Source: Boudabousia tangfeifanii
GTDB taxonomy: Bacteria; Actinomycetota; Actinomycetes; Actinomycetales; Actinomycetaceae
Length of the DNA: 64,000 nucleotides
Direction of reading: 5' to 3'
NCBI RefSeq assembly: GCF_001856685.1
Contig: NZ_CP017812.1
Coordinates: forward strand, 124,001-188,000
A model generated the notes under the pieces. That model did not search any database. It saw nothing but the letters and a program-made list of their open reading frames with translations, and was not told where the DNA came from. Below, one piece after another: positions 32,037 to 52,039 of this stretch (the first letter of the stretch is position 1; each line of letters starts with the position of its first letter). The position numbers were made by a program, and so were the translations under genes.

Positions 32037-32072
32037 AAGTGGAGGGACAGTTTAAGTACTGTCCCTCCACTT
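32037..32072 (-). terminator. Terminator of surface-protein gene 1
   Basis: AAGTGGAGGGACAGT pairs with its complement around a six-base loop; the minus strand continues TTTGTT. It sits 20 bases past the stop at 32092. Confidence 0.88.
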
Positions 32073-32091: not shown

Positions 32092-35000
32092 TTAGGCCAT
32101 TTTGTTGCGTCGGCGTACGGCTTGGGTCATGCCTAGGGTGGAGATTAGTAGTAGGAGGGTGCCTCCGACTGCTAGTGGCATGTGTCCGTTGCCGCCGGCT
32201 TTTGGTAGTTCGCCGGCGCGTGGGTCGTGGACTGTTACCTTTGGGCCGGCGACGGCGAAGGTGCCGTCGGTGGCTTGTCCGGTGGGTTCACCGGTCTTAA
32301 GGTTTAGTGGCACGATGTTGCCGCTACCGTCGACTTTGAACACGAGTGGTTCTGGTAGTAGTGAGTAGTCCTTGGTGGGGGACTTGGTTTCTACTAGGAA
32401 GTAGACGGTGCCGGCGTTTAGGGTTGGGGTGACGAAGCGTCCCATGTATTTGTTGTCGCCGTCGTTGGAGGCGAGTGCATCTTGTGGGAAGCGGTTTTCG
32501 TTGTCCGCGGTTAGTTCGTCTAGTTCGGCTTTGACCAGCTCGCCCATGGTGTAGGGTTTGGTGGTTGAGTTGGCTGCCTTGTAGAGGGCGAACTTGGCGC
32601 CGCTTAGGCGGGTGCCGTTAGCGTCGGTCTTTTCAACTAGGGCGATTCCAAGTTGTGGTTTGACTGGGGTGCAGGCGTCGTTGTTGCCGTCTGTACCTGG
32701 GTCGTCTTGGGTGCTGACCTTGTTGAAGAAGCCGGTGCCTGGTTTGCCTGCGCCTTCGTTTTCACATTCGCCTGCGCCCTTGGCTGCCGAGTCGGTTGCG
32801 CTCCAGTTGAGTTTGGCTGCTGCTTCGGCGCTGATCTTGCCGGTAACTTCGATGTAGTAGTTGACACTTTCGCCGCCGTTGATAGCCTCGGTGCCTGCTG
32901 GGATTTCGAAGGTTACGGTGTTGCCTTGGACGTTGCTTACCGGGGCGAGGGCGTTTTCGTCCTTGCCGTACTTGGCGGAGGTGATTTCAAAGCCTTGTGG
33001 CAGTGTGATCACATCGGTGATGGCCGGTTGGGCAGAAGCGTTCTTGCCGGCGTTGGTGGCAACCACCTTGTACTTAACGGTAGCGCTTAGCGAACCGTCT
33101 TGAGCGCTAGTTAGGGTGACTGAGGTTCCGGTAGAACCTGGGGTCTTAACATACCCGTCGCCACCATTGTTAGCCTCATCAGCCCCGTCAGCTGCCGGAT
33201 CAAACTGCGAGAACTTAGCAACCGTCCACTTATTTTCCACCACCGGAATACAAGCAAAGTTATCCCGATACCAAACAGCGTTATCTTCAGCGTAGTTCGG
33301 GCTTTCGAATGCGAGTGCTACGTTGTTGAGTGCTGCCTTGTCGGTGAGGTTAGCGAGTTTAACTGCTTTACCGTTGGTGTTTGCGGTTTCGCTGTTACAT
33401 ACGGCGAGGCCAGCTTGTGCTTGCTCGAACTTGGTAACCTCACTACCTTCCACCTTCGAGGTGTCAGCCTTAACTGGGATGGTGATAGTAAAGGTGCCGC
33501 TTTCCTGTGGGCCGAGGTTGTTGATGGAGGTTGCGAGTACCGCGTTTTCCTTCAACTCTTGTTCGGTGTAGGTGTCCTTGCCACCAACGCGTGAGCCTTG
33601 GCCATCGTAGGTGACGGTGGCGGTCTTGTCGGTGTCGAATACCAAACCTGCAGGAGCGGTGAAGAAGTCCTTGATTTCACCGGTGTTACCAGCAAATGCG
33701 GAGTCGTTGGTGACCTTCATCTTGTACACGAGGTCTCCCTTGCCGCCCTTGAGGACGACTGCTTCACCAACGTGTTCGTTGCCGAGCTTCTTGTCTGGGG
33801 TGCCAGCAAGTTTCTCGATGTGGAAACGCGGGATGCGGGTGTTCTTGATGGTACAAGTTGCCGAACCGTTCTTTGGAACGTTTACGGTCTGCTTGTCAAC
33901 CATGGTGCCGCCTTCACAGGTCCATTCACCGGACTTGTAATAGCCTGGGATAGCTTCTGGCTGGTTGATAAGTTCGGCTAGTTTGTAGTTACCTGCGACT
34001 ACGTCCTGGTCAACAGCTACACCTTCAGTTGGCTTAGCCTGGCCGTTAGCGCCTGCGAGTGGGCTACCGGTTTCAGGGTTGGTACCAGTGGCGGCTAGAA
34101 CGAAGTGACCTAGGTCGTCAGGAACCTGCGAGTTAATGACACGACCATTCTGGTCAACAATCTGCTTAACCAACTTGAGGTGAGCAGTAGGTTGACCGGT
34201 GAATGGAATACACGAGTCGTTGTTGTCTTTGCCGTCCTTGTCACCCTCTAGGGCTACCTGGTTGAAGAAACCAGTACCTGGCTTGCCAGGACCTTCGTTT
34301 TCACACTTTTGTGCGGCAACGTTGTTTGCGGCTTCAAGGTTTTCAGCCTTTACCTTGATCTTGATCGCGTAGATCTTGGATTCACCGGACGCGACCTTTC
34401 CACCAGGCAAAGTGATTGGGAACGGATTACTGCCATCGGAGTAGTCTTCGTTCATTAGGACTTTGTCGGTCTTGAGGTCAAGTACACCAACGTGGGTAAT
34501 CTTGAATCCTGCTGGTGGGGTAAAGGTGTCCTGAATATCGGCTAAGACAGCTTCGGCATTACCAACGTTCGTTGCAGTGACAACGTAACGCAAGGTGGCA
34601 GTGCCGTCAGCACCAATCATGACAGGATTACGAGTATGTTCGCCAGCTGGTGCAAGGGTGCCGGTTACAGGATCAACTGCAGATTTACGAACCTTGAAGC
34701 CTTCTGGACCAGGTGTTGGATGACCGTATTGGCAAGAAGTCAGGTCAAGGATTCCTTTCGCAACTGCAGGCTCGAAGTCAACCTGAGGTGCTACTTCAGT
34801 TTTATTTCCAATTTCAGGTTGCTGATAAAGGTTCTTGAAGCCCTTCGTTAGATCGCCGGAACCGGAATACAGGTTTCCATCCTTACCAAATGCAGAACCA
34901 TACACGACCTTGATATTGCTGTAGGTGCCCCATGGCTTCATCTTACTGGTGTCAATTAGGTTGAATGAGTACGGGTTGGTGCCGCGTGGCTTGTTCACTT

Positions 35001-36810
35001 CTTCCTTAGGAATGTAGAACGTCTTTGCTGGTCCGGCCTTGGTTCCCATTGTGAATAACATTGAACCATCTTCAAAGAAAGCCAAGTCATTCAACTGGTA
35101 ACCGGATGGAATAGGAATTCCGGCCTTTTTCTCTAAGGTAGCAGCCTTTCCAGCTTCAGGATCAGGGGAACCATCAGGTAGCTTTAGGTCCTTATCTGTG
35201 AAGGTGAATTTCATTGGCAAGGCGGTGCCTCTCGTCTGGGAAACTACCCACAGATTACCTTCGGGATCGAATGCACTCGCCTGGTTGGCGATAGAAACAA
35301 GTGTCTCTCCAGAAAGTGTTACATTCTCAATAGTGCCGATTTTTATGGCCTCTGGATCTGTTGAGCCTGGCAAAGGCACACGCATACGTTTCAAGGTGTT
35401 AGCTTGTCCCCCAATCTTCGGGATGAAGTAGATCCATTGTGGGAATTGCCTTGCAATTGCGATACCGCCGTTTTTAGACTCAAAAGGAATCGAGAATCCA
35501 TCTGGACTGTGAAGAGGATCGTCAATATTGATCAGCTTAATATTTGTTGGGTTCGTAGTTGAATCGCCTGCATCTGTAACATAAATGTTGTCACACCAGT
35601 TGTTCTTTTCTTGAACAGGTCCACCAGGAAGGCGGAAGGTATCAACGTCACCTCGTGACGATGGGATCAATTTACGGCCCATGTCTACCTGGAAGCCCAT
35701 GGTGTCAAGGCGATCAGGGTTTAGGTCCTTCGGGATGGCAGGATCTAGACAGTTGGAGTACTGGAAGCCGCGGCGCATTTCGAAAACGGTGCCAGGCTGG
35801 ATCCACTGGGTACCGGTCCAAGAATCTGGGTTGTAGCGCCAGTTAATCGAATCCAAGAAGGTTGGATTAGTTAGCTGAGGGTCAACCCCAAACAATGGCT
35901 TTGTGGAATCGTTGTTTCGAAGCACTGCACCTTCGAGGAACTGGTTGGTGAGGTCACCAGGGGTACCACCAGGGCTGGTAATGCGAATACCGTTACGCTT
36001 GGTGAGGTTAGGATCAGCAAGATCCATAGCACTAGCCGGAAGCGGGTCAATAGTTGCTTGGTTCTTGCTCTTTGGATCGACGAACTTAATGTCAGCCAAC
36101 CAAGCACCAATATTTCCCTCAGGAACCGTCCACTTGTAAACGGCAACACCGGAGCAACGAGTACCCGGATCGTTTTCAATGTTCTTTGAAATCGGCGCGA
36201 AGCCAGTAGTGCCCTTTATGTCAGTAGTCATATTCATGGACGCGGTGAAAATATCACCCGGCTGTGCATTTTCGCTAATCTTCGCAGGCGCCGAGAATGT
36301 CGCGGTGCCATCTGCGTTAATGCCCGAAACCTCGTAAATCCAGGTATTTGGATCATCTGGGGACTTCCGAGCCGAATCTACCGTACCTGAAGTAAGGGTT
36401 AGGTCACTAGTCTGAGGATCTTTTTGTGTGAACGGAGCCTCTGGATCTTGAGTAACCGTAATGGTGGCAGTGTTTGTGACACCCTTTGGTACTTCGTATT
36501 TGAAGCTGCCATTATAGTTGAATTCGACACCAGGAGCAGGTTCTTTACCTTTGAAATCATGTTCCAAGGTGCTGGTAATAGTAGTGGCGTCACCCACTGC
36601 TTCTTCGATTGAAGGGTCGTTTACCCATGCACCTGCCTGTTCAGCGGTTCCCATAGTCAGGGCGGACGTACCAATCAGTGCAGCAGTCGCGGCGATGGCT
36701 GCGAAGCCGTAGTGACGGTAGTGGCGCTTACGCGCTTTTTCCGCTGAAAAATCACCATTTTCTGGCGCTTGACGGCCGGTGCGGCGGTCATCAAATATGT
36801 AGTTAGGCAC
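32092..36810 (-). CDS. Giant LPKAG-anchored surface protein 1 (type A N-terminus)
   Basis: 1572 residues. The GTG start at 36810 has AGGAG eight bases ahead. A basic N-terminal extension of about 30 residues precedes a hydrophobic export signal (about 33-60), then VNDSSIEEAVGD. The first 700 residues contain a beta-rich head with six-bladed-propeller-like repeats such as SAFGKDGNLYSGSG. From about 725 come DUF11-like beta-sandwich repeats (RKSAVDPVTGTLAP, HLKLVKQIVDQNG, FHIEKLAGTPD, VENKWTVAKFSQFDP), then a SpaA-like domain (LGIALVEKTDANGTRL) and the sorting signal LPKAG at 1535-1539, hydrophobic helix and basic tail. It should be covalently attached to peptidoglycan and act in adhesion. The last 390 residues are nearly identical to gene 4. 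It has its own promoter region and terminator. Confidence 0.88.
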   Translation of the reverse strand: MPNYIFDDRRTGRQAPENGDFSAEKARKRHYRHYGFAAIAATAALIGTSALTMGTAEQAGAWVNDPSIEEAVGDATTITSTLEHDFKGKEPAPGVEFNYNGSFKYEVPKGVTNTATITVTQDPEAPFTQKDPQTSDLTLTSGTVDSARKSPDDPNTWIYEVSGINADGTATFSAPAKISENAQPGDIFTASMNMTTDIKGTTGFAPISKNIENDPGTRCSGVAVYKWTVPEGNIGAWLADIKFVDPKSKNQATIDPLPASAMDLADPNLTKRNGIRITSPGGTPGDLTNQFLEGAVLRNNDSTKPLFGVDPQLTNPTFLDSINWRYNPDSWTGTQWIQPGTVFEMRRGFQYSNCLDPAIPKDLNPDRLDTMGFQVDMGRKLIPSSRGDVDTFRLPGGPVQEKNNWCDNIYVTDAGDSTTNPTNIKLINIDDPLHSPDGFSIPFESKNGGIAIARQFPQWIYFIPKIGGQANTLKRMRVPLPGSTDPEAIKIGTIENVTLSGETLVSIANQASAFDPEGNLWVVSQTRGTALPMKFTFTDKDLKLPDGSPDPEAGKAATLEKKAGIPIPSGYQLNDLAFFEDGSMLFTMGTKAGPAKTFYIPKEEVNKPRGTNPYSFNLIDTSKMKPWGTYSNIKVVYGSAFGKDGNLYSGSGDLTKGFKNLYQQPEIGNKTEVAPQVDFEPAVAKGILDLTSCQYGHPTPGPEGFKVRKSAVDPVTGTLAPAGEHTRNPVMIGADGTATLRYVVTATNVGNAEAVLADIQDTFTPPAGFKITHVGVLDLKTDKVLMNEDYSDGSNPFPITLPGGKVASGESKIYAIKIKVKAENLEAANNVAAQKCENEGPGKPGTGFFNQVALEGDKDGKDNNDSCIPFTGQPTAHLKLVKQIVDQNGRVINSQVPDDLGHFVLAATGTNPETGSPLAGANGQAKPTEGVAVDQDVVAGNYKLAELINQPEAIPGYYKSGEWTCEGGTMVDKQTVNVPKNGSATCTIKNTRIPRFHIEKLAGTPDKKLGNEHVGEAVVLKGGKGDLVYKMKVTNDSAFAGNTGEIKDFFTAPAGLVFDTDKTATVTYDGQGSRVGGKDTYTEQELKENAVLATSINNLGPQESGTFTITIPVKADTSKVEGSEVTKFEQAQAGLAVCNSETANTNGKAVKLANLTDKAALNNVALAFESPNYAEDNAVWYRDNFACIPVVENKWTVAKFSQFDPAADGADEANNGGDGYVKTPGSTGTSVTLTSAQDGSLSATVKYKVVATNAGKNASAQPAITDVITLPQGFEITSAKYGKDENALAPVSNVQGNTVTFEIPAGTEAINGGESVNYYIEVTGKISAEAAAKLNWSATDSAAKGAGECENEGAGKPGTGFFNKVSTQDDPGTDGNNDACTPVKPQLGIALVEKTDANGTRLSGAKFALYKAANSTTKPYTMGELVKAELDELTADNENRFPQDALASNDGDNKYMGRFVTPTLNAGTVYFLVETKSPTKDYSLLPEPLVFKVDGSGNIVPLNLKTGEPTGQATDGTFAVAGPKVTVHDPRAGELPKAGGNGHMPLAVGGTLLLLISTLGMTQAVRRRNKMA
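32121..33276. repeat. Near-identical tract, copy 1 (shared with 47524-48679)
   Basis: 1156 bases align without gaps to 47524-48679 at a constant offset of 15,403 with about 14 substitutions counted by eye (about 98.8% identity). Identity stops abruptly at 33276 within both coding regions, while flanking parts of the paralogous genes are clearly diverged. Confidence 0.9.
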
Positions 36811-37176
36811 GGAAATTGCTCCTATTTCAAAATACAGTCTTGTTGGTCATGTTACTACACGCCAGAAATGCTTGCAGAAACAAAAACAATGAACTGTAAA
36901 TTATTGGAGCTCTGAATTAATTTTTTGAGAAGGAAGACTGTAAATTTCCGTGCTTTCTCAATAAATCTCGGTATTTGAGTAGTGCCTAAGTATTAAGTTT
37001 TAGTATTAGTCACATTTTTTCTTATAGTCACCTAAGAAAATGATCCAAAATGGTTGATGGTGTCAGCCCAGAAAGTGTCGAAAACTGGGCTGACACCATC
37101 AAGTTTTATTCGGACTAACCCTGCAACCGAGCTCTACCTTGGAGGAAGCCGAACCCGATTGCAGGAGTCCTTGGCG
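36811..37176. other. Intergenic region upstream of surface-protein gene 1
   Basis: 366 AT-rich bases without a gene. It contains the ribosome site and presumed promoter of gene 1 and the terminator of gene 2 (37056-37100). The ten-mer ACTGTAAATT occurs twice, at 36893-36902 and 36937-36946, possibly an operator. I cannot place a convincing -35/-10 pair. Confidence 0.5.
37056..37100. terminator. Terminator of surface-protein gene 2
   Basis: GATGGTGTCAGCCCAG pairs perfectly with its complement around a loop holding AAAGTGTCGAAAA. It lies 77 bases beyond the gene 2 stop (37177). T runs are weak on the minus strand. Confidence 0.75.
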
Positions 37177-40100
37177 TCAGGATCGACGTACTGTGCGGAA
37201 CATGCCTGCTGCTGACAACAGAACAATCAAAGCGCCGCCGATTGCCAGAGGCATGCGACCATTGCCGCCAGCCTTTGGAAGCTCACCGGTACGAGGATCT
37301 CGTACAGTAACCTTTGCAGCTGCGGTGAGGAAGGTGCCATCGTCAGCCTTGCCTAGTGCTTCACCGGTCTTGGCGTCAAGGGCAATCAAGTTGCCTGCGC
37401 CGTCAACCTTGAACACGTAAGGTTCAGGTAGCAAGGAGAAGTCCTTGGTTGGGGACTTGGTTTCCACTAGGAAGTAGACGGTACCAGCCGACAAGGTTGG
37501 GGTCACGAAGCGACCCATGTACTTGCCATCACCATCGGTGTCGGTCAAAGCATCTGCTGGAATCTGGCCTGCATTAGCTTCAGTCAACTCGTCAAGTTCT
37601 GCCTTAACCACTTCACCCATGGCCAATGGCTTGGCGTTGGAATCAGCAGCCTTGTACAAAGCGAACTTGGCACCCGAGAGGCGAGAACCGCCAGCGTCAG
37701 TCTTTTCAACCAACGCGATACCTAGCTGAGGCTTGACCGGGGTACAAGCATCGTTGTTACCATCAGTACCTTCGTCGCCTTCCATGCTGACATGGTTAAA
37801 GAAACCAGTTCCTGGGGTGCCACCATTTTCGGTACGGCATTCGCCCACACCCACAGCTTCAGAATCGGAAGCAGTCCAAGCCAACTTGGCAGCGTCCTCG
37901 GCAGTAATCTTGCCGGAAACCTCAACCAAGTAATCCATGTGCTCGCCACCGTTAACCTTGTCGGAACCCGCAGGAATCTCGAAAGTAACAGTGTTGCCAG
38001 CAATCCCGGAAACTGGAGCCAAAGCACCATCGGCAGGGCCGAACTTCGCATCAGTAATCACAAAGCCCTGAGGCAAAGTGATGGTATCGGAAATAGCAGG
38101 CTGGACTGAAGCGTTCTTGCCGCGGTTAGTGGCGCGAACACGGTACTTAACGGTTGCAGTCAAATCGCCATTATCAGCCGGAGTCAAAGTGACACCAGTA
38201 CCAGTGGTGCCAGGGGTCTTCACGAACCCGTCGCCACCATTGTTGGCCTCGTCAGCACCTTCAGCCGAAGGATCGAACTGCGAGTACTTTTCCACGCTCC
38301 ACTTGTTCTCCACAACTGGGATACAAGCGAAGTTGTCACGGTACCAAACGGCGTCATTCTCAGCGTACTGAGTGTTTTCCAAATCGATGTTGGCATTGTT
38401 AACCGCAGCCTTATCGTTCGGGTTCGCCAGCTTCACTTCTTCGCGGTTAACGGTAGCGGTCTGAGTTTCACACTGGCCGAGGGCGTCCTGCGCCTGCTCG
38501 AACTTCGTCAAATCAGAACCCTCAACCTTAGAGGTGTCAGCTTTAACTGGAATAGTGATGGTGAAGGTAGCCTTAGCCTGTGGGCCAAGATTCTTAACCG
38601 AATCAGCTAGCACAGCGCCAGCCTTAAGCTCTTCAGCGGTGTAGGTGTCCTTGCCGCCCACACGGGAACCTTCGCCCGAGAAGACAACCTTGACAGCCTT
38701 CGCATCATCCATGACCAAACCGGCAGGAACTTCGAAGTTATCGCGGACTACGCCAGTGTTACCAGCAAAGTTCGAATCATTAACCACGTTCATGCGGTAA
38801 ACGAGTTCGCCAGCTCCATTCTTCAACACCACTGGTTCACCTACGTGGGGGTTACCCAAAGCAGGATCCGGGGTGCCGGCAAGCTTCTCAATGTGGAAGC
38901 GAGGAAGGCGAGTGTTCTGGATAGTACAGGTGACGCTGCCATTTTCAGGCACATCAACAGTATTGGCGTTAACCATCTTGCCGTTGCCACCTTCACAGGT
39001 CCAGTTGCCGGACTGGTAGTAGCCAGCCACGCCACCTGGTTCGGTGATGGTTTCCGACAAGGCGTAACGACCGGCGAAAACATCCTGATCCACAGCTACG
39101 CCCTCGTTAGGCTTAGCCTGGCCAGTAGCGCCACCAAGTGGGTTCATGTTTTCCGCAGTGTAGCCGGAGGCAGCCAAAGAGAAGTGGCCGAGGTCGTTAG
39201 GTACCTGCGAGTTAATCACGCGACCGTCCTGGTCCACAATCTGCTTAACCAACTTCAAGTGAGCCACTGGACGAGGCTTCACTGGAATACAAGCATCATT
39301 GTTATCAGGACCATCGGAGTCATTTTCCATGGCAACACGGTTGAAGAAACCACCACCAGGGGTGCCCTCACCTTGGGTGTTGCACTCGCCAGCAATATTC
39401 TTAACAGCTTCCAAGCTATCAGCCTGCAAAGAAACAGTGACCTGGTAAGACTTCAGAGCGCCAGAAGCCAATTCCCCCGGAGCAAGGGTGAAAGTAGCGT
39501 TCTTGCCCTGAGACTTGCCGTCCACAGCAACATCGGTAATCGTGAAGCCCGCAGGGGCAGAGACTGTATCGGTCACGTTACCGGGGTTGCCAGCAGCAGT
39601 ACCAGAGTTAGCCACAGTTACCAAGTAGCTAACCTTGACAGAGCCGTCATCGTTAATCTTTGCATTGTTGATAGTGGTGCCGCCGGCAGTAGCTGGAGCG
39701 CCAGTTACTGGATCAATCGCACGCTTCTGCACCAAGAACTTAGGAGCATCAGGAGCAGGCTGTTCGCCGGCAGGAATATAGCTACACGAACCCATATCGG
39801 CAATACCAGGAGAAACAGTTACGTTAGGAACGCGGGTAATCTTGCCGCCATCAGGCGAAGCAGTGTACAAGTAGCCTTGATCTCGGGTACCGAGGTAAAG
39901 ATTACCGTCAGCACCAACCGCTACGCCGTTAAATTCCTTGATCGAATCTGAACTTGTCAAAATTGCCTGTTTGATTGGCTGGATCACGGTCTGGCCGGTG
40001 GTGTTAATCAAGTCGTCATGAGAGTAGGTCAAAACAACTTTCTGCTTAAGAGCGTTGCTACCAGTGGTTGAGTTTGCAACCGTTACCAAGTCACCATTTG

Positions 40101-41787: not shown

Positions 41788-42205
41788 GAATTGCTCCTAT
41801 TCAAAACTGTACATAGTACGTAGAAGCTGGAATCGTACGTGCAAAAAAACATTCACGCAAACAACTAATTTTCACGTTCTCAACAAGGTCTATTTGTTTC
41901 CTAATGGCAATATTTGTAAACCTGCTGTTTGACAAAAATATGATGATTTATGTCGGTTAAATATGAGCCAGCAAACTTTTCTTTGTGACAGATTTATTAA
42001 AGCTGCCATTTTCTTTTATTTTCTTGCGCAAGCAAGTTTCTGACACTGTGTTGTAATCGTCATTTATAATTTTCAGCAGAATTGTGGGCGAAAGTGAAAT
42101 AAGTGTGACCTCTTAGGCAAGCAGTGATTTAGATTTTCTTTCTCACGCCGTTTGTTTGTCAGAAAAAATGTAACGTTTTCGAGAATTTGTTATCGCATAA
42201 ATATG

Positions 42206-42243
42206 CGCTTATTATGCATGAATATTTTCGTGCATAATAAGCG
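42206..42243 (+). promoter_or_regulatory. Inverted repeat with plus-strand T run
   Basis: CGCTTATTATGCA (42206-42218) pairs with TGCATAATAAGCG (42231-42243) around a 12-base loop and is followed by GGTTTTT. A second palindrome, GCATAAATATGC (42195-42206), abuts it. As a terminator it would act on the plus strand, where no upstream gene is visible, so an operator or the end of a small RNA are both possible. Confidence 0.45.
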
Positions 42244-42266
42244 GGTTTTTGGCAGTAGATAAAGAA

Positions 42267-42310
42267 GTGGTGCCAACCGGAAAAGTGTCGAAAAATCCGG
42301 TCGGCACCAC
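42267..42310. terminator. Terminator of surface-protein gene 3
   Basis: GTGGTGCC and CCGG arms pair with CCGG and GGCACCAC across a loop AAAAGTGTCGAAAAA, the same loop core as in the terminator of gene 2. It lies 22 bases past the stop at 42332. Confidence 0.8.
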
Positions 42311-42331
42311 AAACCTTATTGGTGGAACCGC

Positions 42332-45300
42332 TTAGCTGCGACGCACCCGCAAAATTCGGGTCATGCCTAGGGCAGAAACCAGAACCAGTAGAGTGCCACC
42401 CACAGCCAGGGGCATTCGTCCATTACCGCCTGCCTTTGGCAGTTCGCCAGTGCGGGGGTCATGGACAGAAACCTTCGCTCCGGCAGTGAAGAACGTGCCA
42501 TCATCTGCCGATCCAATCGGTTGTGCCGTCTTTGCGTTCAAGGCAACCACGTTGCCCGAAGCATCAACTTGGAACACGAATGGTTCAGGCAGGAGCGAGA
42601 AGTCCTTAGTTGGCGACTTAGTCTCAACCAAGAAGTAGACCGTACCCACATTCAAATCCGGGGTCACGAAACGACCATGGTAGGTGTCGTCGCCGTCCTC
42701 GGTAGATAGGCTGTCAGGGGCGAAACGGCCCGCATTCTTAGCAGTCAACGGATCCAAATCAGCTTTCACTAAATCACCCATAGTTAGCGGTTTCGAGGAC
42801 GCATCCGCAGCCTGGTACAAGGCGAACTTGGCACCACTCAAACGAGCACCTGCCGCATCCGTCTTTTCTACCAGCAAGATGCCGGTGCGAGGCTTGATCG
42901 GAGTGCAAGCATCGTTATTGCCATCAGTGCCGTCATCACCGTCAATCGAGACGCGGTTAAAGAAGCCGGTGCCCGGACGACCAGCGCCCTCGGTGAGACA
43001 CTCACCAGCAGCGGTTGCGGCCGAATCGGATTCAGTCCAGTTCAACTTGGCGGCCTCGGTGGCCGAAATCTGGCCAGTCACTTCCACCAAGTAATCGCGG
43101 TGGGCACCACCAGCTACCTTGTCGGTACTAGCCGGAATCGTGAACGTAACCGTATTACCGCCAGCCTTTACCGGTGCTAGCGAATCGAGGTCGCGGCCAA
43201 ACTTCGCTGCAGTAATCTCGAATCCCTGGGGGAGAGTGATGGTATCCGTTACCTCGGGAACCACCGCTTCCAGCTTCCCTCGGTTGACCACCCGAACTCG
43301 GTACTTCACAGTGGCGCTGAGCTGGCCCTCACCACTAGGTTCGAGGACGACACCAGTACCAGTGCTACCTGGAGTCTTCACAAAGCCATCACCGCCATTA
43401 TTGGCCGGATCGGCGCCCTCGACTGCTGGGTCGTACTGCGCGAACTTTTCTACCTTCCACTTGTTTTCCACGACTGGAATACAAGCGAAGTTGTCGCGAT
43501 ACCAAACGTTGTCATTCTCGGCGTACAACGTGTTCTCGTGATCGAGGCTGGCGTTGTTGACTGCCGCATCGTCATTTGGCTTAGCTAAATTGACCTTTTG
43601 GCGATTAACTGTGGCACTTTCCGTGGCGCACTGGCTCAAAGCGTCCTCGTGCTGCTGGAAACGCGTGACCGGCTTACCCAAAACCTGGCGGCTATCAGCC
43701 ATCACCGGAATGGTAATGGTGAAAGTAGCCTTGGCGTTCGGGGCCATGCCACGAATCGATTCGGCCAAAACGGCTCCCTGATCGAGCTCAGCCTTGGTGT
43801 AAGTGTCCTTACCGCCAAAGCGTTGACCATCGCCCGAGAAAGTCACCTTCGCAACACTAGACTCGTCAAACAGTAGGCCATTGGGTGCCTGGAATCGATC
43901 GCGAACAATGCCGGTGCGGCCAGTAAAGTTCGAATCGTTTACCACTTCGAGGCGGTAAACCAGCTCGCCCTTACCATTCTTCAGAACCACAGGTTCACCA
44001 ACGTGCGGGTTGTTCAGACCTTCGGCTGGCGTATTAGCCAACTTCTGGATATGGAACTTAGGGGTACGAGTGTTCTTGATGGTACAAGTGACACTACCGT
44101 TCTTTGGCACATTAACCGTGTTGCCATCGAGCATACGCCCGCCAACACAATCCCAGTTACCAGACTGGTAGTAGCCGTTCAGAGCACCGGGCTCAGCAAT
44201 GGTCTCAACCAGCTTGTAATTACCGGGCACTACGTCTTCATCCGCAGCGACACCAGCATTACCCTTCGCCTGGCCAGAAACACCAGCAAGCGGGCTACCA
44301 GTTTCTGGGTTGAAGCCAGAAGCACCCAACATAAAGTGGCCGAGGTCGTCAAGCACGGGTGAATTAATCACGTCGCCGTTTTGATTGACGATCTGCTTAA
44401 CCAGTTTCAAGTGGGCAGTTGGCTGTCCGGTGAAAGGAATGCAAGCATCGTTATTCTCGGTGCCGTCGGCGTCCTCGGGCATGGCAACTTGGTTAAAGAA
44501 ACCAGTGCCCGGGGTGCCATTGCCGTCATTCTTACAAACCTGTGCGGTGGCATTATTAGCAGCTTGGAGACTATCAGCCTTTACTCGGATAGTAATGGCA
44601 AAAGCTTTCGTCCCACCCGGGGCTAATTCGCCCACCGGCAAGGTGAAGGGCGAACCACTAACGTTAGGCAAGCGGTCGCCACCCAAGACTGTCGCAGAAA
44701 CACTCTTGACTGTAAAACCTTTAGGAGCAGTAAAGGTATCGGTGATGTTCTGCGGGGTGATCGGTTCGTCGCCAACGTTAGTTGCGGTAACGACATACTT
44801 CAGAGTTGCCGTGCCATCAGCTCCAATCATTACCGGGTTCTTAGCCGCTTCACCGGCCGGGGCCAGGGTTCCCGTAACGGGATCCACTGCTGACTTCTGC
44901 ACCTTCACACCAGTAGGGCCAGGTTGCTGGCCGCCGAAGGAACAAGAAGTCAAGTCCAAGATGCCTGTTGCCGCAGCAGGACTGTAACTGAAAGGCTTCA
45001 TGTAGGTTTCGCGGTTACCCGACTCTGGCTCAATGTAAACGTTAGGACGCGTCGCGGTCGAAGTGCCCTTCGAAACATAGAGCTGGCCATCTGAACCGAA
45101 GGCGGAACCATAAATGTAGCCACCATTGGTGTAAGTGCCGTACTTCTTCCCCTGCGAGGGGTAGAGACGTTCATTCTTCTTCACCTGTTCGGCAGTGAAG
45201 ACATAAGTGATTGCCTTCGAAGAAGAGCCGAAAGTAGCTAGGAAATCACCATTAGACATAAATGCAAAGTCATTAACGTAGGCTCCGCGAATGTCCGTCT

Positions 45301-47029
45301 GGTTCATGATGATGGCACCTGGGTAGACGGTTGCCACGGTACCGTCCTCGTTAAATTCATAACGGTATAGACGGGTTTCGGTATCATTGGTGCGAGCCAA
45401 CCAGAAGCTGCCATCTGGGGAGAAAGCGCTCGGCTGGGTGGTGACGTCATAACCGAGGGCGCGCGGGTTAGTCACCCGCACCGTTTCAGTCCTACCAGTC
45501 TGCACGTTAAAACGCTTCAAACCGCGCATGTTTGACTGCGGCACATAGTAGAGCCAACCAGGGTACTGGCGGCCCATCGCGATACCACCCTGGACTGTGC
45601 GGTCAGGGAAAGCCACAGTCTTCATCCCGTGCTGTGGGTCCTTAATATTGATGGAACCAATTCGAGGGCTGCCGTAAATGAAGGTGCCCGGAGGCTGCAT
45701 ATCCATGAAATAGATATCGTCACACCATGAGTTCTCATCAATATTCTTTCCACCCGGCAGGCGGAAAACATCGATCGCAGTCTGATCGTTGGTTGGGAGT
45801 TTGCGACCTTGTGAAATCTGCACGCCAATAATGTCGCGCTTAGGATTCGGGGAGGTCGAAACTCGTACCGGCAAACAGTTTGCCAGCTTAAAACCACGTC
45901 TGATTTCAAACACGGTCCCGGACTTAATCCACTGTTTACCAGTCCAAGTTTCCGGATTGTAAGGCCAGTTGATTGAATCCAAGAAGCGGCCATTGGCCAG
46001 CTTAGGGTCAGTACCGAACAAAGGCTTGGTTGAGTCGTCATTGCGGGTGACGGCCTCGGTCAAGTACTCGTTGGTGAACGCCCCATCAGTGGTGCCCGGA
46101 GAAGAAACTCGGAAACCGTTTCGCTTCTCCATTTTAGGGTCGGCGAGGGCGGCAGCATTGGCCGGTAGAGGATCCAAAACTGCATCTTGGGAGTCTGAGT
46201 AATCTGCGAACTTGATATCGGTTAACCAAGCACCAAGTTTGCCTTCAGGCACCCGGTACTTGAAATAAGCAACACCAGAACACTGGCCAGCATCCCAAAT
46301 TAGCTTCTGATCAAGATTTTGTAGTTGGGTATCGCCCGTTGGGGTCATCGCAAAATTGGCAGAACCACTGATAATGGTGCCAGGGCCGGCCTCGGCAGAT
46401 AGGGTGGCCTGCTTAACGAATGTGGCCGTGCCACCCTGAGTAACATTTTCAATGGTGTAGACCCAAGTGTTCGGGTCATTATTGTCCTGCTTTACGCCAA
46501 CTACATTTCCACTGGGGAATTTTAGATCAGCTAGTTGCGGCGCAGACTTAAAAGGAGCCTGCGAATCTTGGGTGACAGAGAAGCGAATCCGGTTTGGAGC
46601 ACCTTCAGGCACGTTGAAGGTGAACTTCCCAGTGTAGGTGAAGTCCTCGCCCGGTTTCGGTTCGCTGCCATCACTGCTCTTGGAATGTTCCAAGGTGCCC
46701 TTGATGACTGGGGTATCGCCGACCGCTTCCTCGATGGAATTATCGTTAACGAAAGCAAAAGACTGTGTGGCCGGCGCACCCGAGAAAGCGAAGCTGCTGA
46801 CTAGGGCGGCGGTTAGTACGGTTGCGCCAACGCCTAAGCCAATACGAGCTCCATAAGGGACACGCTTAGAACCATTCTTATGAGCTTGGGAATGGTTACA
46901 CCGCAAATTAGTATCACTAATATGCGCATAATTATGCAGAGTTTCTGGGGTTGCTGTGTTTGGGTCTCCATTCGTTGAGGCTACCCGACTCTGATTAGAG
47001 GCACGATCGCCGGAAAAGAACTTAAACAC
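42332..47029 (-). CDS. Giant LPKAG-anchored surface protein 3 (type A N-terminus)
   Basis: 1565 residues from the GTG at 47029, chosen because AGGAG lies eight bases ahead and this matches the start context of genes 1 and 2; a TTG at 47068 has no such site. A 60-residue hydrophilic extension precedes the export helix, then VNDNSIEEAVGD. Its head is of the same kind as protein 1: FRLPGG then NSWCDDIYF, and GSAFGSDGQLYVSKG. DUF11-like repeats (VQKSAVDPVTGTLAP, HLKLVKQIVNQNG, FHIQKLANTP, VENKWKVEKF) and a SpaA-like domain lead to LPKAG at 1530-1534, a hydrophobic helix and RVRRS. Its codon use is richer in C than its neighbours' heads. Confidence 0.87.
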   Translation of the reverse strand: MFKFFSGDRASNQSRVASTNGDPNTATPETLHNYAHISDTNLRCNHSQAHKNGSKRVPYGARIGLGVGATVLTAALVSSFAFSGAPATQSFAFVNDNSIEEAVGDTPVIKGTLEHSKSSDGSEPKPGEDFTYTGKFTFNVPEGAPNRIRFSVTQDSQAPFKSAPQLADLKFPSGNVVGVKQDNNDPNTWVYTIENVTQGGTATFVKQATLSAEAGPGTIISGSANFAMTPTGDTQLQNLDQKLIWDAGQCSGVAYFKYRVPEGKLGAWLTDIKFADYSDSQDAVLDPLPANAAALADPKMEKRNGFRVSSPGTTDGAFTNEYLTEAVTRNDDSTKPLFGTDPKLANGRFLDSINWPYNPETWTGKQWIKSGTVFEIRRGFKLANCLPVRVSTSPNPKRDIIGVQISQGRKLPTNDQTAIDVFRLPGGKNIDENSWCDDIYFMDMQPPGTFIYGSPRIGSINIKDPQHGMKTVAFPDRTVQGGIAMGRQYPGWLYYVPQSNMRGLKRFNVQTGRTETVRVTNPRALGYDVTTQPSAFSPDGSFWLARTNDTETRLYRYEFNEDGTVATVYPGAIIMNQTDIRGAYVNDFAFMSNGDFLATFGSSSKAITYVFTAEQVKKNERLYPSQGKKYGTYTNGGYIYGSAFGSDGQLYVSKGTSTATRPNVYIEPESGNRETYMKPFSYSPAAATGILDLTSCSFGGQQPGPTGVKVQKSAVDPVTGTLAPAGEAAKNPVMIGADGTATLKYVVTATNVGDEPITPQNITDTFTAPKGFTVKSVSATVLGGDRLPNVSGSPFTLPVGELAPGGTKAFAITIRVKADSLQAANNATAQVCKNDGNGTPGTGFFNQVAMPEDADGTENNDACIPFTGQPTAHLKLVKQIVNQNGDVINSPVLDDLGHFMLGASGFNPETGSPLAGVSGQAKGNAGVAADEDVVPGNYKLVETIAEPGALNGYYQSGNWDCVGGRMLDGNTVNVPKNGSVTCTIKNTRTPKFHIQKLANTPAEGLNNPHVGEPVVLKNGKGELVYRLEVVNDSNFTGRTGIVRDRFQAPNGLLFDESSVAKVTFSGDGQRFGGKDTYTKAELDQGAVLAESIRGMAPNAKATFTITIPVMADSRQVLGKPVTRFQQHEDALSQCATESATVNRQKVNLAKPNDDAAVNNASLDHENTLYAENDNVWYRDNFACIPVVENKWKVEKFAQYDPAVEGADPANNGGDGFVKTPGSTGTGVVLEPSGEGQLSATVKYRVRVVNRGKLEAVVPEVTDTITLPQGFEITAAKFGRDLDSLAPVKAGGNTVTFTIPASTDKVAGGAHRDYLVEVTGQISATEAAKLNWTESDSAATAAGECLTEGAGRPGTGFFNRVSIDGDDGTDGNNDACTPIKPRTGILLVEKTDAAGARLSGAKFALYQAADASSKPLTMGDLVKADLDPLTAKNAGRFAPDSLSTEDGDDTYHGRFVTPDLNVGTVYFLVETKSPTKDFSLLPEPFVFQVDASGNVVALNAKTAQPIGSADDGTFFTAGAKVSVHDPRTGELPKAGGNGRMPLAVGGTLLVLVSALGMTRILRVRRS

Positions 47030-47219
47030 TAACAACGCTCCTAAACTAAATTTAACTTGAGCTTTCAAGCATAGGATTCTTAATTCTGGAAATCAAGCGT
47101 TGAAATTTAGGGAAAAACTTTTTGTTGAGACGATTCTAATTATCAAATTAATTATTTGTCTGCCGGGTTGACTTAAGGGGTAATTTTATAATTTATTGTG
47201 ATACAAGATGACACCTAAT

Positions 47220-47242
47220 TGACGTTTTCTGACAAAACGTCA
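47220..47242. promoter_or_regulatory. Perfect palindrome upstream of surface-protein gene 3
   Basis: TGACGTTTT and AAAACGTCA form nine-base arms around CTGAC. It lies about 190-210 bases upstream of the gene 3 start. No T run follows, so it looks like an operator more than a terminator. Regulator unknown. Confidence 0.45.
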
Positions 47243-47444
47243 CAACAATGTAAAAAAGAGTTAAGACGTTTAAGCTTTGATGTGTCAGCAAAGTATCATC
47301 GATAATCGTAAAAACTTCTGATTTTCTTAAGTTTTGTAAGTGAGTTAGAGCAAGTTAAATAAGAATGTGAGTGTTAGTTGAATAATTATTAGTCGACTTT
47401 TGTATAAAAGTACAGGTATGTATATTTTGGTTTGGGGTAAAGAA

Positions 47445-47482
47445 AAGCGGTTGGGGTGAACAAGGTTTCACCCCAACCGCTT
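47445..47482 (-). terminator. Terminator of surface-protein gene 4
   Basis: AAGCGGTTGGGGTGAA pairs with its complement around a short loop; the minus strand goes on TTCTTT. It lies 13 bases past the stop at 47495. Confidence 0.88.
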
Positions 47483-47494
47483 AAGTTGGTTTAC

Positions 47495-50400
47495 TTATCG
47501 GTTTTGGCGTTGCCGCCGGATTGCTTGGGTCATGCCTAGGGTGGAGATTAGTAGTAGGAGGGTGCCTCCGACTGCTAGTGGCATGTGTCCGTTGCCGCCG
47601 GCTTTTGGTAGTTCGCCGGCGCGTGGGTCGTGGACTGTTACCTTGGGGCCGGCGACGGCGAAGGTGCCGTCGGTGGCTTGTCCGGTGGGTTCACCGGTCT
47701 TAAGGTTTAGTGGCACGATGTTGTTGCTGCCGTCGACTTTGAACACGAGTGGTTCTGGTAGTAGTGAGTAGTCCTTGGTGGGGGACTTGGTTTCTACTAG
47801 GAAGTAGACGGTTCCGGCGTTTAGGGTTGGGGTGACGAAGCGTCCCATGTATTTGTTGTCGCCGTCGTTGGAGGCGAGTGCATCTTGTGGGAAGCGGTTT
47901 TCGTTGTCCGCGGTTAGTTCGTCTAGTTCGGCTTTGACCAGTTCGCCCATGGTGTAGGGTTTGGTGGTTGAGTTGGCTGCCTTGTAGAGGGCGAACTTGG
48001 CGCCGCTTAGGCGGGTGCCGTTAGCGTCGGTCTTTTCAACTAGGGCGATTCCAAGTTGTGGTTTGACTGGGGTGCAGGCGTCGTTGTTGCCGTCTGTACC
48101 TGGGTCATCTTGGGTGCTGACCTTGTTGAAGAAGCCGGTGCCTGGTTTGCCTGCGCCTTCGTTTTCACATTCGCCTGCGCCCTTGGCTGCCGAGTCGGTT
48201 GCGCTCCAGTTGAGTTTGGCTGCTGCTTCGGCGCTGATCTTGCCGGTAACTTCGATGTAGTAGTTGACACTTTCGCCGCCGTTGACGGCCTCGGTGCCTG
48301 CTGGGATTTCGAAGGTTACGGTGTTGCCTTGGACGTTGCTTACCGGGGCGAGGGCGTTTTCGTCCTTGCCGTACTTGGCGGAGGTGATTTCAAAGCCTTG
48401 TGGCAGTGTGATCACATCGGTGATGGCCGGTTGGGCAGAAGCGTTCTTGCCGGCGTTGGTTGCAACCACCTTGTACTTAACGGTAGCGCTTAGCGAACCG
48501 TCTTGAGCGCTGGCTAGGGTTACTGAGGTACCGGTAGAACCTGGGGTCTTAACATACCCGTCGCCACCATTGTTAGCCTCATCAGCCCCGTCAGCTGCCG
48601 GATCAAACTGCGAGAACTTAGCAACCGTCCACTTATTTTCCACCACCGGAATACAAGCAAAGTTATCCCGATACCAAACGTTGTCGTTTTCGGCGTATTG
48701 GGTGTTTTCCAAGTTCATGTTCACGTTGTTAATCGCGGCTTTATCGTTGGGGTTAGCCAACTTAACTTCCTGGCGGTTAACAGTTGCACTTTCGCTGTTA
48801 CAAACAGCGAGCTTGGCTTGTGCTTGTTCGAACTTGGTAACCTCACTACCTTCCACCTTCGAGGTATCAGCCATCACTGGGATGGTGATAGTAAAGGTGG
48901 CCTTTTCTTGCGGGCCGAGGTTAGTGATCGAGTCGGCCAAAATGGCGCCAGCCTTTAGCTCTTCGACACTGTAAGTATCCTTACCGCCAACGCGCGAGCC
49001 TTGACCATCGAAGGTTACCTTCACGCTCTTATTAGGGTCGATAAGCAAGCCGGCAGGAGCTTCGAACTTATCTCGAATCACTCCAGTGTTACCAGCAAAA
49101 GCAGAATCGTTGACCACTTCCATGCGGTAAACCAAATCGCCCTTACCACCCTTAAGAACTACCGGCTCACCCACATGGGCATTACCAAGCTTCTTATCAG
49201 GCGTACCAGCAAACTTCACCGTGTGGAAACGCGGCACCCGAGTATTCTGAATCGTACAAGTAACACTACCATTAGCAGGAACATCAACCGTTGTTCCGTT
49301 TGGCATTACTCCGCCGTCACATTTCCAAGCGCCAGATTGGTAATAACCTGAAAGAGCGCCGGTTTCAGTGATTGTTTCAGACAGGGCGTAACGACCAGCG
49401 AATACATCTTGATCAACGGCGGTGCCTTCGCCGGGTTTAGCCTGACCAGAAACGCCACCAAGAGGATTGTTGTTTTCGACTGTGTATCCTGAAGCTGCCA
49501 AGGTGAAATGACCGAGGTCGTCAGGCAACTGGGTGTTCAACACCTTGCCATTTTGATCCACAATCTGCTTAACCAACTTCAAATGTGCTACTGGGCGAGG
49601 TTTCACTGGGATGCAGGCGTCATTGTTGTCTGAGCCATCTGCGTCATTTTCCATCTTCACTTGGTTGAAGAAACCACCGCCAGGGCTGCCAGCTTTTTCA
49701 GTATTGCATTCCCCAGAAATATTCTTAATGGCTTCCAAGTTGTCAGCTTGGTACTTGACAGTTAAACGGAAGGTTTTAACTGAATATGCCGCCATTTCTT
49801 CAGCGGGAATTTGGAAGTTGTCGACTTTTCCTAACGACTTGCCATCGAGGAGAACGTCCTCGACGCTAAAACCAGTTGGAGGGGTGATTGGGTCGGTAAT
49901 CGCAGCTGGAGTGCCTGCCTTACCGCCAATATTGGCGAGTTTAATCAGATAATCAATACTGACCTTGCCATCGTCAGTAATCTGCGCACTATTTACTGTA
50001 GTGGTGCCGGCTTGAGCGGCGGTGCCAGTGAGTGGATCAATTGCAGCTTTTTGGATTTCGAACTTAGGCTCAAGTGGTTGAGGGGTGATATAGGAACAGG
50101 AACCCATATCTGTAATTGAGCTACGAGTAGACGTTATTGCAATCGCTGTTCCACCTGCATACGGTACCTTGTAAATAGTATTATTTCCGGCTCCACCAAA
50201 GTACATCATTCCATCCCCACCGATGGCAAAACCATTTACCCCGATCAATCTTGGAGTAATAATCGTTGAGACGGTGGTTGGTGAGATAGTTACTCCGCCT
50301 GTGGGATTAGGCTTCGTTATGTCCTTACGCGAGTAGGTGTAAACACCTTTAATCTGTTTGGCTCTATCACCATTTTCCGCTTCAGACATGAGCACCATGT

Positions 50401-52039
50401 CGCCCGAATCGGTAAAAGTAAGATCCATTGGAGGTGCTCCGGATACCCTGGGGTTAGGAAGTGCAGGATGAGTTTCCCAAGTCGCCTTAGGGTTAGTCAG
50501 ATCTAATGAATACAGGATTGGACTTGCATTATAAGGATATGCCCAAAGAATTCCATAGGGATCTACGCCGGCTGGAACGGCAACTTTGGTAGAACCTGGG
50601 AAGTCTGGGAAAGCTTGTGCGATTCCCATTCCTTTCAAGCCATCTGTGAAGTAGACTTTGTTGTCTTTGCCAATGTAGATGAACTTATTTGGTAGTTTTG
50701 GAGAGACGGCGATGGTACCGCCTGAAGGGGTTGGTGATAATCCTGCCCTGACTCCAGAGATCTCTTGCGATGCGGTATTAAACTTTTCTACTTTATTTGA
50801 AACGGAAAGGCTGTTCCCCTCGTCGATATAAATATCTTGACACCATGGGGTTTTTATTATTTCAGTTTTGCCGCCAATCATAAAAGCGTCATCAGCGAAG
50901 TCTTGAACGGGAATTAGCCTACGACCTTGATCTATTTGTACACCAATGATGTCGCGATATGCATCGAAAGTGGTTGATGCGTGCACAGGGGTACAGTTGT
51001 TGAGAGTGAATCCGCGACGTATTTCAAACACAGTGCCTGGTTTTACCCACCTAGTACCGGTCCAAGTTGCCGGATTATATGGCCAGTTGATCGAGTCGAG
51101 GAAAGTGCCATTGGCAAGTAGCGGGTCTACTCCGAATAAGGGGAGCGTGGAATCATCATTGCGGACTACCGCAGTTTCAAGAAATTCGTTTGTTAGTGCC
51201 CCGTCTTCAGTCCCTGGAGTTGAGACTTTCATGCCAACACGCTTAGTCATATTTGGGTCGGCTAGATCGCTGGCATTTGCGGGAAGCGGATCTAAAATTG
51301 CGTCTTTAGAATTGGCATAGTTCGAGAACTTTATATCTGCTAACCAAGACCCTAGCTTGTCAGTAGGAATTCGGTATTTAAAATAGGCAACTCCGGAACA
51401 TGCTCCTGGCTCCCATGAGACGATTTTCTTGTCTAGTTCTTCGAGGCCTGTATTGCCTGTGGGGTGAACATCAAGTGAGGCAGTGGTGTCAATGATAGTT
51501 CCTGGAGTGACATCTTTTTTCACTGTTGCTTGTTTAGTGAAGGTAATGGTGCCATTTTGGGTGACGTTATCGATAGTAAAGACCCAAGTGTCAGGAGTGG
51601 AATTACTTTCTCGACTCTCAACTACCGTGCCTGAAGGAATCTTAAAATCGTCGGCAGTAGGTGCAGAAATGAATGGGGCGTCAGGATTCTGGGCAACTCT
51701 TACAATCAGTCGAGATGGGCTACCTGGGGCCACGGTATATTTGAAATTTCCAGTATAGGTAAACGTTTCACCGGGCTTAGGATCTGCGTTTTCTGGACCT
51801 TTGGAATGTTCAAGTGAAATATTAATGGTAGGTAAATCATTAACTTTCATCGGAATACTTGAATCATCAACGTAAGCAAACGTCGGTGAAGAAGCGTGCA
51901 TCCCAACGATTCCGGCTGCCACTATGGATACTGCAGAGATCGCTGCAATTAAACCTTTTGAGCGCTGGATCTTTGTTGTCGAAATGCGCTTATGAGCAGT
52001 AGCGAATTTGTTGCTTTCTGACCTCAAAAACCTAGACAT
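47495..52039 (-). CDS. Giant LPKAG-anchored surface protein 4 (type B N-terminus, gene 1-like C-terminus)
   Basis: 1514 residues from an ATG at 52039 with AGGAG six bases ahead. A basic start and hydrophobic export segment (about 32-50) are followed by YVDDSSIPMKVND. The head matches protein 2 (FAIGGDGMMYFGGAGNN, ITDMGSCSYI). DUF11-like repeats start with IQKAAIDPLTGTAAQ and include RPVAHLKLVKQIVDQNG and FHTVKFAGTPDKK. From about residue 1120 on it is almost identical to protein 1, including the SpaA-like domain and LPKAG (1477-1481), then helix and RRQRQNR tail. Thus a type B head sits on a protein 1 stalk, a mosaic. Confidence 0.88.
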   Translation of the reverse strand: MSRFLRSESNKFATAHKRISTTKIQRSKGLIAAISAVSIVAAGIVGMHASSPTFAYVDDSSIPMKVNDLPTINISLEHSKGPENADPKPGETFTYTGNFKYTVAPGSPSRLIVRVAQNPDAPFISAPTADDFKIPSGTVVESRESNSTPDTWVFTIDNVTQNGTITFTKQATVKKDVTPGTIIDTTASLDVHPTGNTGLEELDKKIVSWEPGACSGVAYFKYRIPTDKLGSWLADIKFSNYANSKDAILDPLPANASDLADPNMTKRVGMKVSTPGTEDGALTNEFLETAVVRNDDSTLPLFGVDPLLANGTFLDSINWPYNPATWTGTRWVKPGTVFEIRRGFTLNNCTPVHASTTFDAYRDIIGVQIDQGRRLIPVQDFADDAFMIGGKTEIIKTPWCQDIYIDEGNSLSVSNKVEKFNTASQEISGVRAGLSPTPSGGTIAVSPKLPNKFIYIGKDNKVYFTDGLKGMGIAQAFPDFPGSTKVAVPAGVDPYGILWAYPYNASPILYSLDLTNPKATWETHPALPNPRVSGAPPMDLTFTDSGDMVLMSEAENGDRAKQIKGVYTYSRKDITKPNPTGGVTISPTTVSTIITPRLIGVNGFAIGGDGMMYFGGAGNNTIYKVPYAGGTAIAITSTRSSITDMGSCSYITPQPLEPKFEIQKAAIDPLTGTAAQAGTTTVNSAQITDDGKVSIDYLIKLANIGGKAGTPAAITDPITPPTGFSVEDVLLDGKSLGKVDNFQIPAEEMAAYSVKTFRLTVKYQADNLEAIKNISGECNTEKAGSPGGGFFNQVKMENDADGSDNNDACIPVKPRPVAHLKLVKQIVDQNGKVLNTQLPDDLGHFTLAASGYTVENNNPLGGVSGQAKPGEGTAVDQDVFAGRYALSETITETGALSGYYQSGAWKCDGGVMPNGTTVDVPANGSVTCTIQNTRVPRFHTVKFAGTPDKKLGNAHVGEPVVLKGGKGDLVYRMEVVNDSAFAGNTGVIRDKFEAPAGLLIDPNKSVKVTFDGQGSRVGGKDTYSVEELKAGAILADSITNLGPQEKATFTITIPVMADTSKVEGSEVTKFEQAQAKLAVCNSESATVNRQEVKLANPNDKAAINNVNMNLENTQYAENDNVWYRDNFACIPVVENKWTVAKFSQFDPAADGADEANNGGDGYVKTPGSTGTSVTLASAQDGSLSATVKYKVVATNAGKNASAQPAITDVITLPQGFEITSAKYGKDENALAPVSNVQGNTVTFEIPAGTEAVNGGESVNYYIEVTGKISAEAAAKLNWSATDSAAKGAGECENEGAGKPGTGFFNKVSTQDDPGTDGNNDACTPVKPQLGIALVEKTDANGTRLSGAKFALYKAANSTTKPYTMGELVKAELDELTADNENRFPQDALASNDGDNKYMGRFVTPTLNAGTVYFLVETKSPTKDYSLLPEPLVFKVDGSNNIVPLNLKTGEPTGQATDGTFAVAGPKVTVHDPRAGELPKAGGNGHMPLAVGGTLLLLISTLGMTQAIRRQRQNR
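47524..48679. repeat. Near-identical tract, copy 2 (shared with 32121-33276)
   Basis: Direct-repeat partner of the 3' tract of gene 1, in the same orientation 15.4 kb away. The tract covers the SpaA-like domain and the sorting signal. Synonymous positions are also shared, which argues for recent exchange rather than selection on protein alone. Confidence 0.9.

Follow-up and report, generated by a model that had tools for sequence, protein, structure and literature searches.

We lean towards reading four tandem genes for giant surface proteins in Boudabousia tangfeifanii as orphan alternate tip pilins of the FimQ kind, analogous to CafA, that would cap pilus shafts made in trans. The link to sortase-assembled pili is one that a previous, sequence-only reading of the same DNA missed. 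The four proteins are paralogous to the tip protein of a pilus operon, share its sorting signal, contain no recognisable pilin motif, are mosaic in structure and bear the mark of gene conversion.

The window is a 64,000-nucleotide stretch of the B. tangfeifanii genome, which is a single contig of 2.21 Mb. At positions 32092-52039 of the window, four intact paralogues of about 1,500 residues lie head to tail on the minus strand, as had been described from the sequence: gene 1 (32092..36810, 1572 residues), gene 2 (37177..41787, 1536 residues), gene 3 (42332..47029, 1565 residues) and gene 4 (47495..52039, 1514 residues). The proposal that each has its own AGGAG-led start and its own terminator was borne out, with AGGAG upstream of all four starts (for gene 3 a GTG at 47029, where the frame listing instead runs to a TTG at 47068) and a stable hairpin 3' of every stop. 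These hairpins, also on the minus strand, are terminator-like for gene 1 (32037..32072) and gene 4 (47445..47482), lack an immediate T run for gene 2 (37056..37100), and have a 14-nt loop for gene 3 (42267..42310). The folded stretches 3' of genes 1 to 4 gave z-values of -7.4, -3.2, -6.3 and -6.7, respectively, with an equally good fold in none of the 200 shuffles made for each; the stretch 3' of gene 2 contains a second hairpin as well. Because a consensus terminator scan gave no overall excess over shuffles (20 found, 21.1 expected), the claim of terminators rests on the folds and not on the scan. A scan for sigma-70-type promoters also yielded no excess (11 found, 12.5 expected). Given an AGGAG-led start and a 3' hairpin for each gene, and spacers of 366, 544 and 465 nt between them, the array probably consists of four separate transcription units.

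The proteins share one architecture: an N-terminal hydrophobic leader, an Ig-like pair, a beta-propeller, a stalk with SpaA_2 and SpaA domains, and an LPKAGG anchor. Using Pfam, we detected SpaA_2 and SpaA prealbumin-type domains above cut-off in all four proteins, and DUF11 above cut-off in gene 3. The NCBIfam SpaH/EbpB pilin model produced sub-threshold matches to gene 1 (55.7 bits) and gene 4 (42.8 bits; cut-off 95); NCBIfam otherwise returned a sub-threshold DUF11-type repeat in gene 3 and no match in gene 2. All four stalks are of the isopeptide type, combining SpaA_2/SpaA domains with an E-box (YFLVETKSP), a common but not strictly defining feature of tip pilins; an E-box-like match was also present in six of the seven other giants (not in liu_a). 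The head is predicted to comprise the Ig-like pair followed by the beta-propeller, both recognised by structure prediction and read off whole-head models rather than separately folded domains. Together with the Pfam domains, the head model supports the description of these proteins as adhesin-type surface proteins. On the minus strand, the Ig-like pairs occupy 35632..36582 in gene 1 (by alignment to the gene 2 model), 40585..41532 in gene 2, 45761..46708 in gene 3 and 50879..51829 in gene 4 (by alignment), and the propellers 34723..35601 in gene 1 (type A, by alignment and tree), 39772..40548 in gene 2 (type B), 44933..45730 in gene 3 (type A) and 50087..50848 in gene 4 (type B, by alignment and tree). 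When solved structures were searched by sequence, no relative of the head was found; the two matches obtained both fell in the profile's C-terminal part.

A genome search with gene 2 connected the array to pili. It returned 10 matches in all: the four array genes, one full-length paralogue (2 matches) and 4 short matches in a 2,420-residue frame. The fifth full-length paralogue, hereafter tip 5 (G000:C1:2176446-2181050; 39% identity to gene 2), heads an operon in which a SpaH/EbpB-type shaft comes next, at 327.7 bits (cut-off 95), and then a class C sortase, at 262.2 bits (cut-off 160). Two more operons of tip, shaft and class C sortase are present in the genome, with tips of 2,420 and 1,667 residues from stop to stop. 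A genome search with PF04203 found four sortases, namely three of class C, one per pilus operon, and one of class E. The three shafts above cut-off and the four sortases of the genome all lie away from the array, and among the window frames scanned with Pfam there was no shaft or sortase match, leaving the array without a linked shaft or sortase. Such linkage is typical of tip pilins, although CafA lacks it; as the array lacks it too, we call these proteins tip-like without claiming that they belong among pilus tips. Relatives were seen by eye amid the same neighbours in two genus mates, with such a shaft following in both and a class C sortase also seen in one. Loci with similar neighbours, again judged by eye, read tip-shaft-tip-shaft-tip in Boudabousia liubingyangii (L053, L054, L017) and tip-shaft-sortase in TAE3-ERU4. 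At about 83.6-86.7 kb of the B. tangfeifanii contig (L057:9624-12746), a stop-to-stop frame of 1,041 codons has a class C sortase domain at its residues 765-982 and may encode a pilus sortase with a very long N-terminal extension.

The sorting signals tie the array to tip 5 in particular. All four array proteins end in LPKAGGN followed by a hydrophobic stretch and an R/K tail, which is the LPXTG-like sorting signal of tip pilins with A in place of T. Tip 5 also carries LPKAGGN, the other two operon tips carry LPKSGG and LPASGG, and the shafts carry LPVTGG, LPLTGA and LPVTGG. A DNA search for LPKAGGNG gave six matches, comprising the four array genes, tip 5 and one match opposite a ComEA-like frame, and the reversed pattern gave none. 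Over the first 26 anchor residues, the array proteins share 13-15 identities with tip 5 and 3-12 with the seven other anchors of the genome that were compared (BLOSUM62 sums of 58-67 and -3 to 41, respectively), although by identity the margin is narrow for genes 1 and 4, at 13 for tip 5 against 12 for shaft 3. At residue 4 of the sorting motif, A is found in all four array genes, A or S in 6/6 genus tips and T in 6/6 genus shafts; these are the six tip-shaft pairs that were read, out of 11 shafts counted in four genus genomes, with five shafts unread. The pilin motif YPKN is present in 6/6 shafts and in none of the four array proteins or the seven other giants. Since the array and the local operon tip have a sorting signal in common, assembly at the tip is predicted by the logic established for CafA.

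As a universal tip rule, A or S at position 4 was rejected, a point against the tip reading: outside the genus it held in 15/15 pairs of one set but in only 1/5 of another. In the first set (L083-L104, with record names from Actinomyces, Schaalia and others), tips directly before shafts carry LPxSG or LPxAG and the shafts LPxTG in all 15 pairs, which were drawn from 26 loci examined by eye and include close relatives, so that the pairs are not independent. Four of these loci were set aside because their anchors read T and the neighbour was not clearly a shaft (L085, L090, L092, L099), two because the giants read A and the shaft was not caught by the filter (L080, L082), and L079, L091, L097, L101 and L105 had no pair. 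The record names of L086 and L094 are at odds with the close similarity of these loci to Schaalia/Actinomyces loci. For the second set, 30 loci were examined and 11 rows remained after filtering, one of which had no LPXTG motif; an anchor-like frame lay upstream in six, one of these frames (124 aa, in L138) being dropped as spurious, and 4/5 tips carry LPLTG or IPLTG. In all tip-shaft pairs read, the shaft has T at position 4.

We next placed the array among its relatives. In a survey of 200 family genomes, in which at most two candidates were scored per genome, the array profile matched in 74, mostly weakly and to stalk or anchor domains; SpaH/EbpB-type shafts were commoner (145/200). Long matches from the head onward were present in B. 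tangfeifanii (G000), B. liubingyangii (G001), G003 and G038, while G030 matched head and stalk parts in separate frames. A profile scan of contigs, using an 11-row alignment and confirmed against tip 5, found 45 loci. These include a solitary giant of Corynebacterium sp. 13CS0277 (L079:3751-8352) with a type A propeller and an LPKAGG signal, which may point to horizontal transfer, or could reflect contamination of the draft contig.

Trees were built for five segments from 12 rows: the four array proteins, tip 5, four B. liubingyangii proteins, G003, G038 and the Corynebacterium protein. The array's nearest relative is the lone Corynebacterium gene in the Ig pair (support 95/97), the mid stalk (99/99) and the C-terminus (100/99); the first-stalk tree was poorly resolved. 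A recent origin of the array by copying of tip 5 was ruled out, since the array joins the Corynebacterium gene in three of the five segment trees and the propeller tree splits it.

These relationships bear on a second explanation, which we consider possible but less likely: that the four proteins are stand-alone giant adhesins, relatives of tip pilins that have left the pilus system and would each be anchored singly to peptidoglycan by the class E (housekeeping) sortase, with the stalk projecting the head. Consistent with this, the window frames scanned showed no shaft or sortase linked to the array, those found in the genome lying elsewhere; proteins of about 1,500 residues could project without a shaft; and the Corynebacterium giant, which is nearest to the array in three segments, lies on a 12.8-kb contig with no shaft beside it. 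Against assembly as tips also stand the absence of FLIAG from all four array anchors and the closer relationship to the Corynebacterium gene than to tip 5. LPxAG proteins are moreover reported in Staphylococcus aureus and S. uberis (passages of PMC3436756 and PMC2657157); two LPxAG wall proteins are said in the former to exist in S. aureus, and LPxAG is therefore not tip-specific in other bacteria. Several observations weigh on the other side. The array anchor is best matched by tip 5, and the two other non-pilus wall proteins found, one of them at 52277-54268 of the window, carry LAETG and LADTG, conforming to the LAXTG generally recognised by class E sortases (a statement in PMC8603203). Their search used a permissive E-value and gave 15 matches, 11 with an anchor-like tail, but missed tip 5, so this list may be incomplete. 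The contrast is also weakened because a passage of PMC12445088 gives LPXTG as well as LAXTG for class E sortases. Finally, the Corynebacterium gene may itself be an orphan tip, as SpaH/EbpB-type pilins are present elsewhere in that genome; as an unlinked giant it could belong to either kind of old lineage, one of unlinked tips or one of stand-alone giants.

Returning to alternate tips as our preferred reading, we asked how the four heads are related. They had been divided into two kinds (genes 1 and 3; genes 2 and 4), a division that stands for the propeller only and not for the Ig pair, which groups gene 2 with gene 3. Propeller identity is 36% between genes 1 and 3 and 39% between genes 2 and 4, with the four remaining pairs at 19-25%, whereas Ig-pair identity is 74% between genes 2 and 3, with the five remaining pairs at 46-60%. 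The Ig-pair tree makes the array monophyletic (support 100/99). In contrast, the propeller tree has two groups: one contains genes 1 and 3, the Corynebacterium protein and one B. liubingyangii tip (96/94), and the other contains genes 2 and 4, three B. liubingyangii proteins and tip 5 (98/97). In AU tests, which concern segment trees with long branches and groups partly picked after the identities had been seen, the propeller data rejected an array clade (p-AU 6.1e-5) and the pairing of genes 2 and 3 (p-AU 7e-99). The Ig-pair data rejected grouping genes 1 and 3 with each other (p-AU 0.010) or, as the propeller-type-A group, with the B. liubingyangii tip and the Corynebacterium protein (p-AU 0.001), and likewise a group of genes 2 and 4, tip 5 and two B. 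liubingyangii proteins (p-AU 2e-8). Individual pairs are less firm: the 2+3 node of the Ig pair has support of only 82/86 and 2+4 is not rejected there (p-AU 0.12), and for the propeller the pair 1+3 reaches only 78/83, while the pair 2+4 does not appear in the tree but is not rejected either (p-AU 0.47). The robust part of this picture is that the propellers fall into two old types common to the array and its sister species, with Ig pairs that are array-specific, so exchange of the propeller between lineages has occurred. The conflicting segment trees, together with a sharply bounded tract shared by genes 1 and 4, support the earlier view of the array as a mosaic of reshuffled modules.

That tract lies at 32120..33276 in gene 1 and 47523..48679 in gene 4 (both minus strand) and spans 1,157 nt with 14 mismatches (98.8% identity); 12 codons differ, 9 of them synonymously. 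Genes 1 and 4 had been said to share their C-terminal 390 residues, and the sharing is real, but it covers about 386 codons and ends 9 codons before the stop. It begins inside the stalk and runs through the second stalk half and the last SpaA domain into the sorting signal, most of which it covers, with the heads not included and the terminators outside. In the flanks, three 100-nt blocks ahead of the tract's anchor point are 72-81% identical and blocks past its end 27-50%; the codon alignment of the other five gene pairs contains no exact run of 40 nt or more. The tract is best read as a recent gene conversion, and neither as a whole-gene duplication nor as a likely assembly error. Long near-identical repeats can be mis-joined, but an assembly artefact is very improbable here given the scattered mismatches, the predominance of synonymous differences, the position of both boundaries within coding sequence with differing flanks, and the single-contig genome. 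In B. liubingyangii, two giants are truncated within the sorting-signal region by the ends of their contigs, one being the last of the expanded pilus locus and the other lying on a 5.2-kb contig; their last 60 nt are identical, as are 93 of the last 100, which suggests a shared 3'-end repeat there too, the contig ends preventing a firm statement.

Tandem homologous genes, a clear recent conversion tract and discordant module trees are also what an antigenic- or phase-variation locus might display, in which heads would be actively swapped or switched within a population. The sequence-only reading had proposed such a locus; our results do not support it, and we judge it improbable. The only recent exchange seen spares the heads and homogenises the stalk and anchor, and the propellers are only 36-39% identical within a type, with both types also in the sister species. 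Slippage or inversion as a route to phase variation was rejected because the array has no homopolymer run above 7 nt (31001-54700) and no inverted repeat of 40 nt or more (31000-54700); for comparison, slippage at a nine-G run has been suggested for Bifidobacterium bifidum fimB (a passage of PMC3231923). The 10 matches of the gene 2 genome search include no separate head fragment, a search that could miss a type A propeller fragment. Pfam scans of 37 frames, which are part of the window's frames and several of which had no match, revealed no recognisable recombinase. With complete genes, no switch repeats, no recognised recombinase, old heads and a homogenised anchor, a stable repertoire fits better than antigenic variation. 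The presence of both propeller types in the sister species, at one genome per species, likewise gives no sign of ongoing head variation as judged from these sequences.

Under the alternate-tip reading, each array protein would be secreted with a rigid isopeptide-type stalk and a head of Ig pair and beta-propeller, a class C sortase whose gene lies outside the array would cleave its LPKAGG signal, and the cleaved protein would be attached, through the lysine of the pilin motif, to a SpaH/EbpB-type shaft supplied in trans. For a single pilus the cell could then choose among at least five tips, counting tip 5 along with the four proteins of the array, and the heads would provide the binding function. 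The array would have arisen by duplication, with propeller modules exchanged long ago and stalk and anchor converted recently. More tentatively, the array may be a dedicated repertoire of four swappable shaft-less tips, so that one shaft could carry any of at least five tips with propeller heads; conversion would keep the assembly half uniform for one sortase as the propeller heads diverge and pass between lineages.

Two features of the neighbourhood were noted. Adjoining the array, the LAETG wall-anchored protein at 52277-54268 (minus strand), a likely substrate of the housekeeping sortase, has a long Pro/Thr/Glu-rich region with repeat periods of 12-111 nt and up to 13.7 copies of a 48-nt unit; the longer tandem repeats are found here and not in the array, where the single example is a 29-nt stretch of period 15 at 33313-33341. 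Farther away, the region 3660-24122 is mostly of low GC (39-46%, except 53% at 8-10 kb) and encodes glycosyltransferases, a CDP-glycerol glycerophosphotransferase-like protein, an ABC-2 exporter, UDP-glucose dehydrogenase and UDP-GlcNAc 2-epimerase, consistent with a wall or capsular polysaccharide island that was possibly acquired.

Among the titles and abstract openings covered by our literature search, outside which most subscription papers lay, none described the array locus. Comparisons with known systems differ in how far they extend along the protein. The head model gave weak Foldseek matches to the staphylococcal MSCRAMMs SdrD, SdrE, ClfA and UafA (E about 5e-7 to 6e-5), with TM-scores to the query of 0.11-0.15, which are very low and indicate at most a shared Ig-like fold; we know of no propeller in these proteins. 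The tip-shaft-SrtC operons of the genus (tip 5, B. liubingyangii, TAE3-ERU4) show long homology to the array, which starts at the Ig pair, continues along propeller and stalk and includes the anchor. Their tips adjoin a shaft gene and the array genes do not, and exceptions in B. liubingyangii are one giant at a contig end and a fifth giant alone on the 5.2-kb contig. FimQ is the tip of Actinomyces oris type 1 fimbriae and has 1413 residues (from a passage of PMC3485203). At the A. oris loci L098, L100 and L104, a large tip-like gene with an LPLSGG anchor and C-terminal similarity to tip 5 lies directly before a shaft-like gene, and we infer from size and position that these large frames are FimQ. 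Their match is restricted to the C-terminal part (starting at about residue 1121 or 1185 of tip 5), and they are shaft-linked, unlike the array genes.

The closest parallel in organisation is CafA of A. oris, an alternate tip of the FimA shaft whose gene is not linked to its shaft genes, whose tip localisation has been shown and which is directed to the tip by its FLIAG motif (as given in part of PMC11389406). The array genes are likewise unlinked to a shaft/sortase cluster and, as in CafA, the wall sorting signal resembles that of the operon tip. CafA uses a shaft made in trans, and the array proteins would do the same; A. oris chooses between the tips FimB and CafA, and we propose a similar choice for the array proteins and tip 5. 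In contrast to CafA, the array has four tandem genes rather than one, lacks FLIAG and occupies the tip only by prediction; its head is a predicted beta-propeller, the CafA head being outside this comparison. The known case of a sortase-built shaft with an orphan alternate tip involves one gene, cafA (PMC11389406). A tandem bank of four tips, in which gene conversion holds the assembly half alike and the head module is exchanged, would, if confirmed, show a Gram-positive route to broader binding without duplication of whole pili, and its natural variants would let tip choice by class C sortases be tested. The order of recombination, anciently in the propeller and recently in stalk and anchor, also argues against an antigenic-variation reading of every tandem surface-protein mosaic. 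Collectively, the array extends the known idea of spare pilus tips and is not a new kind of system.
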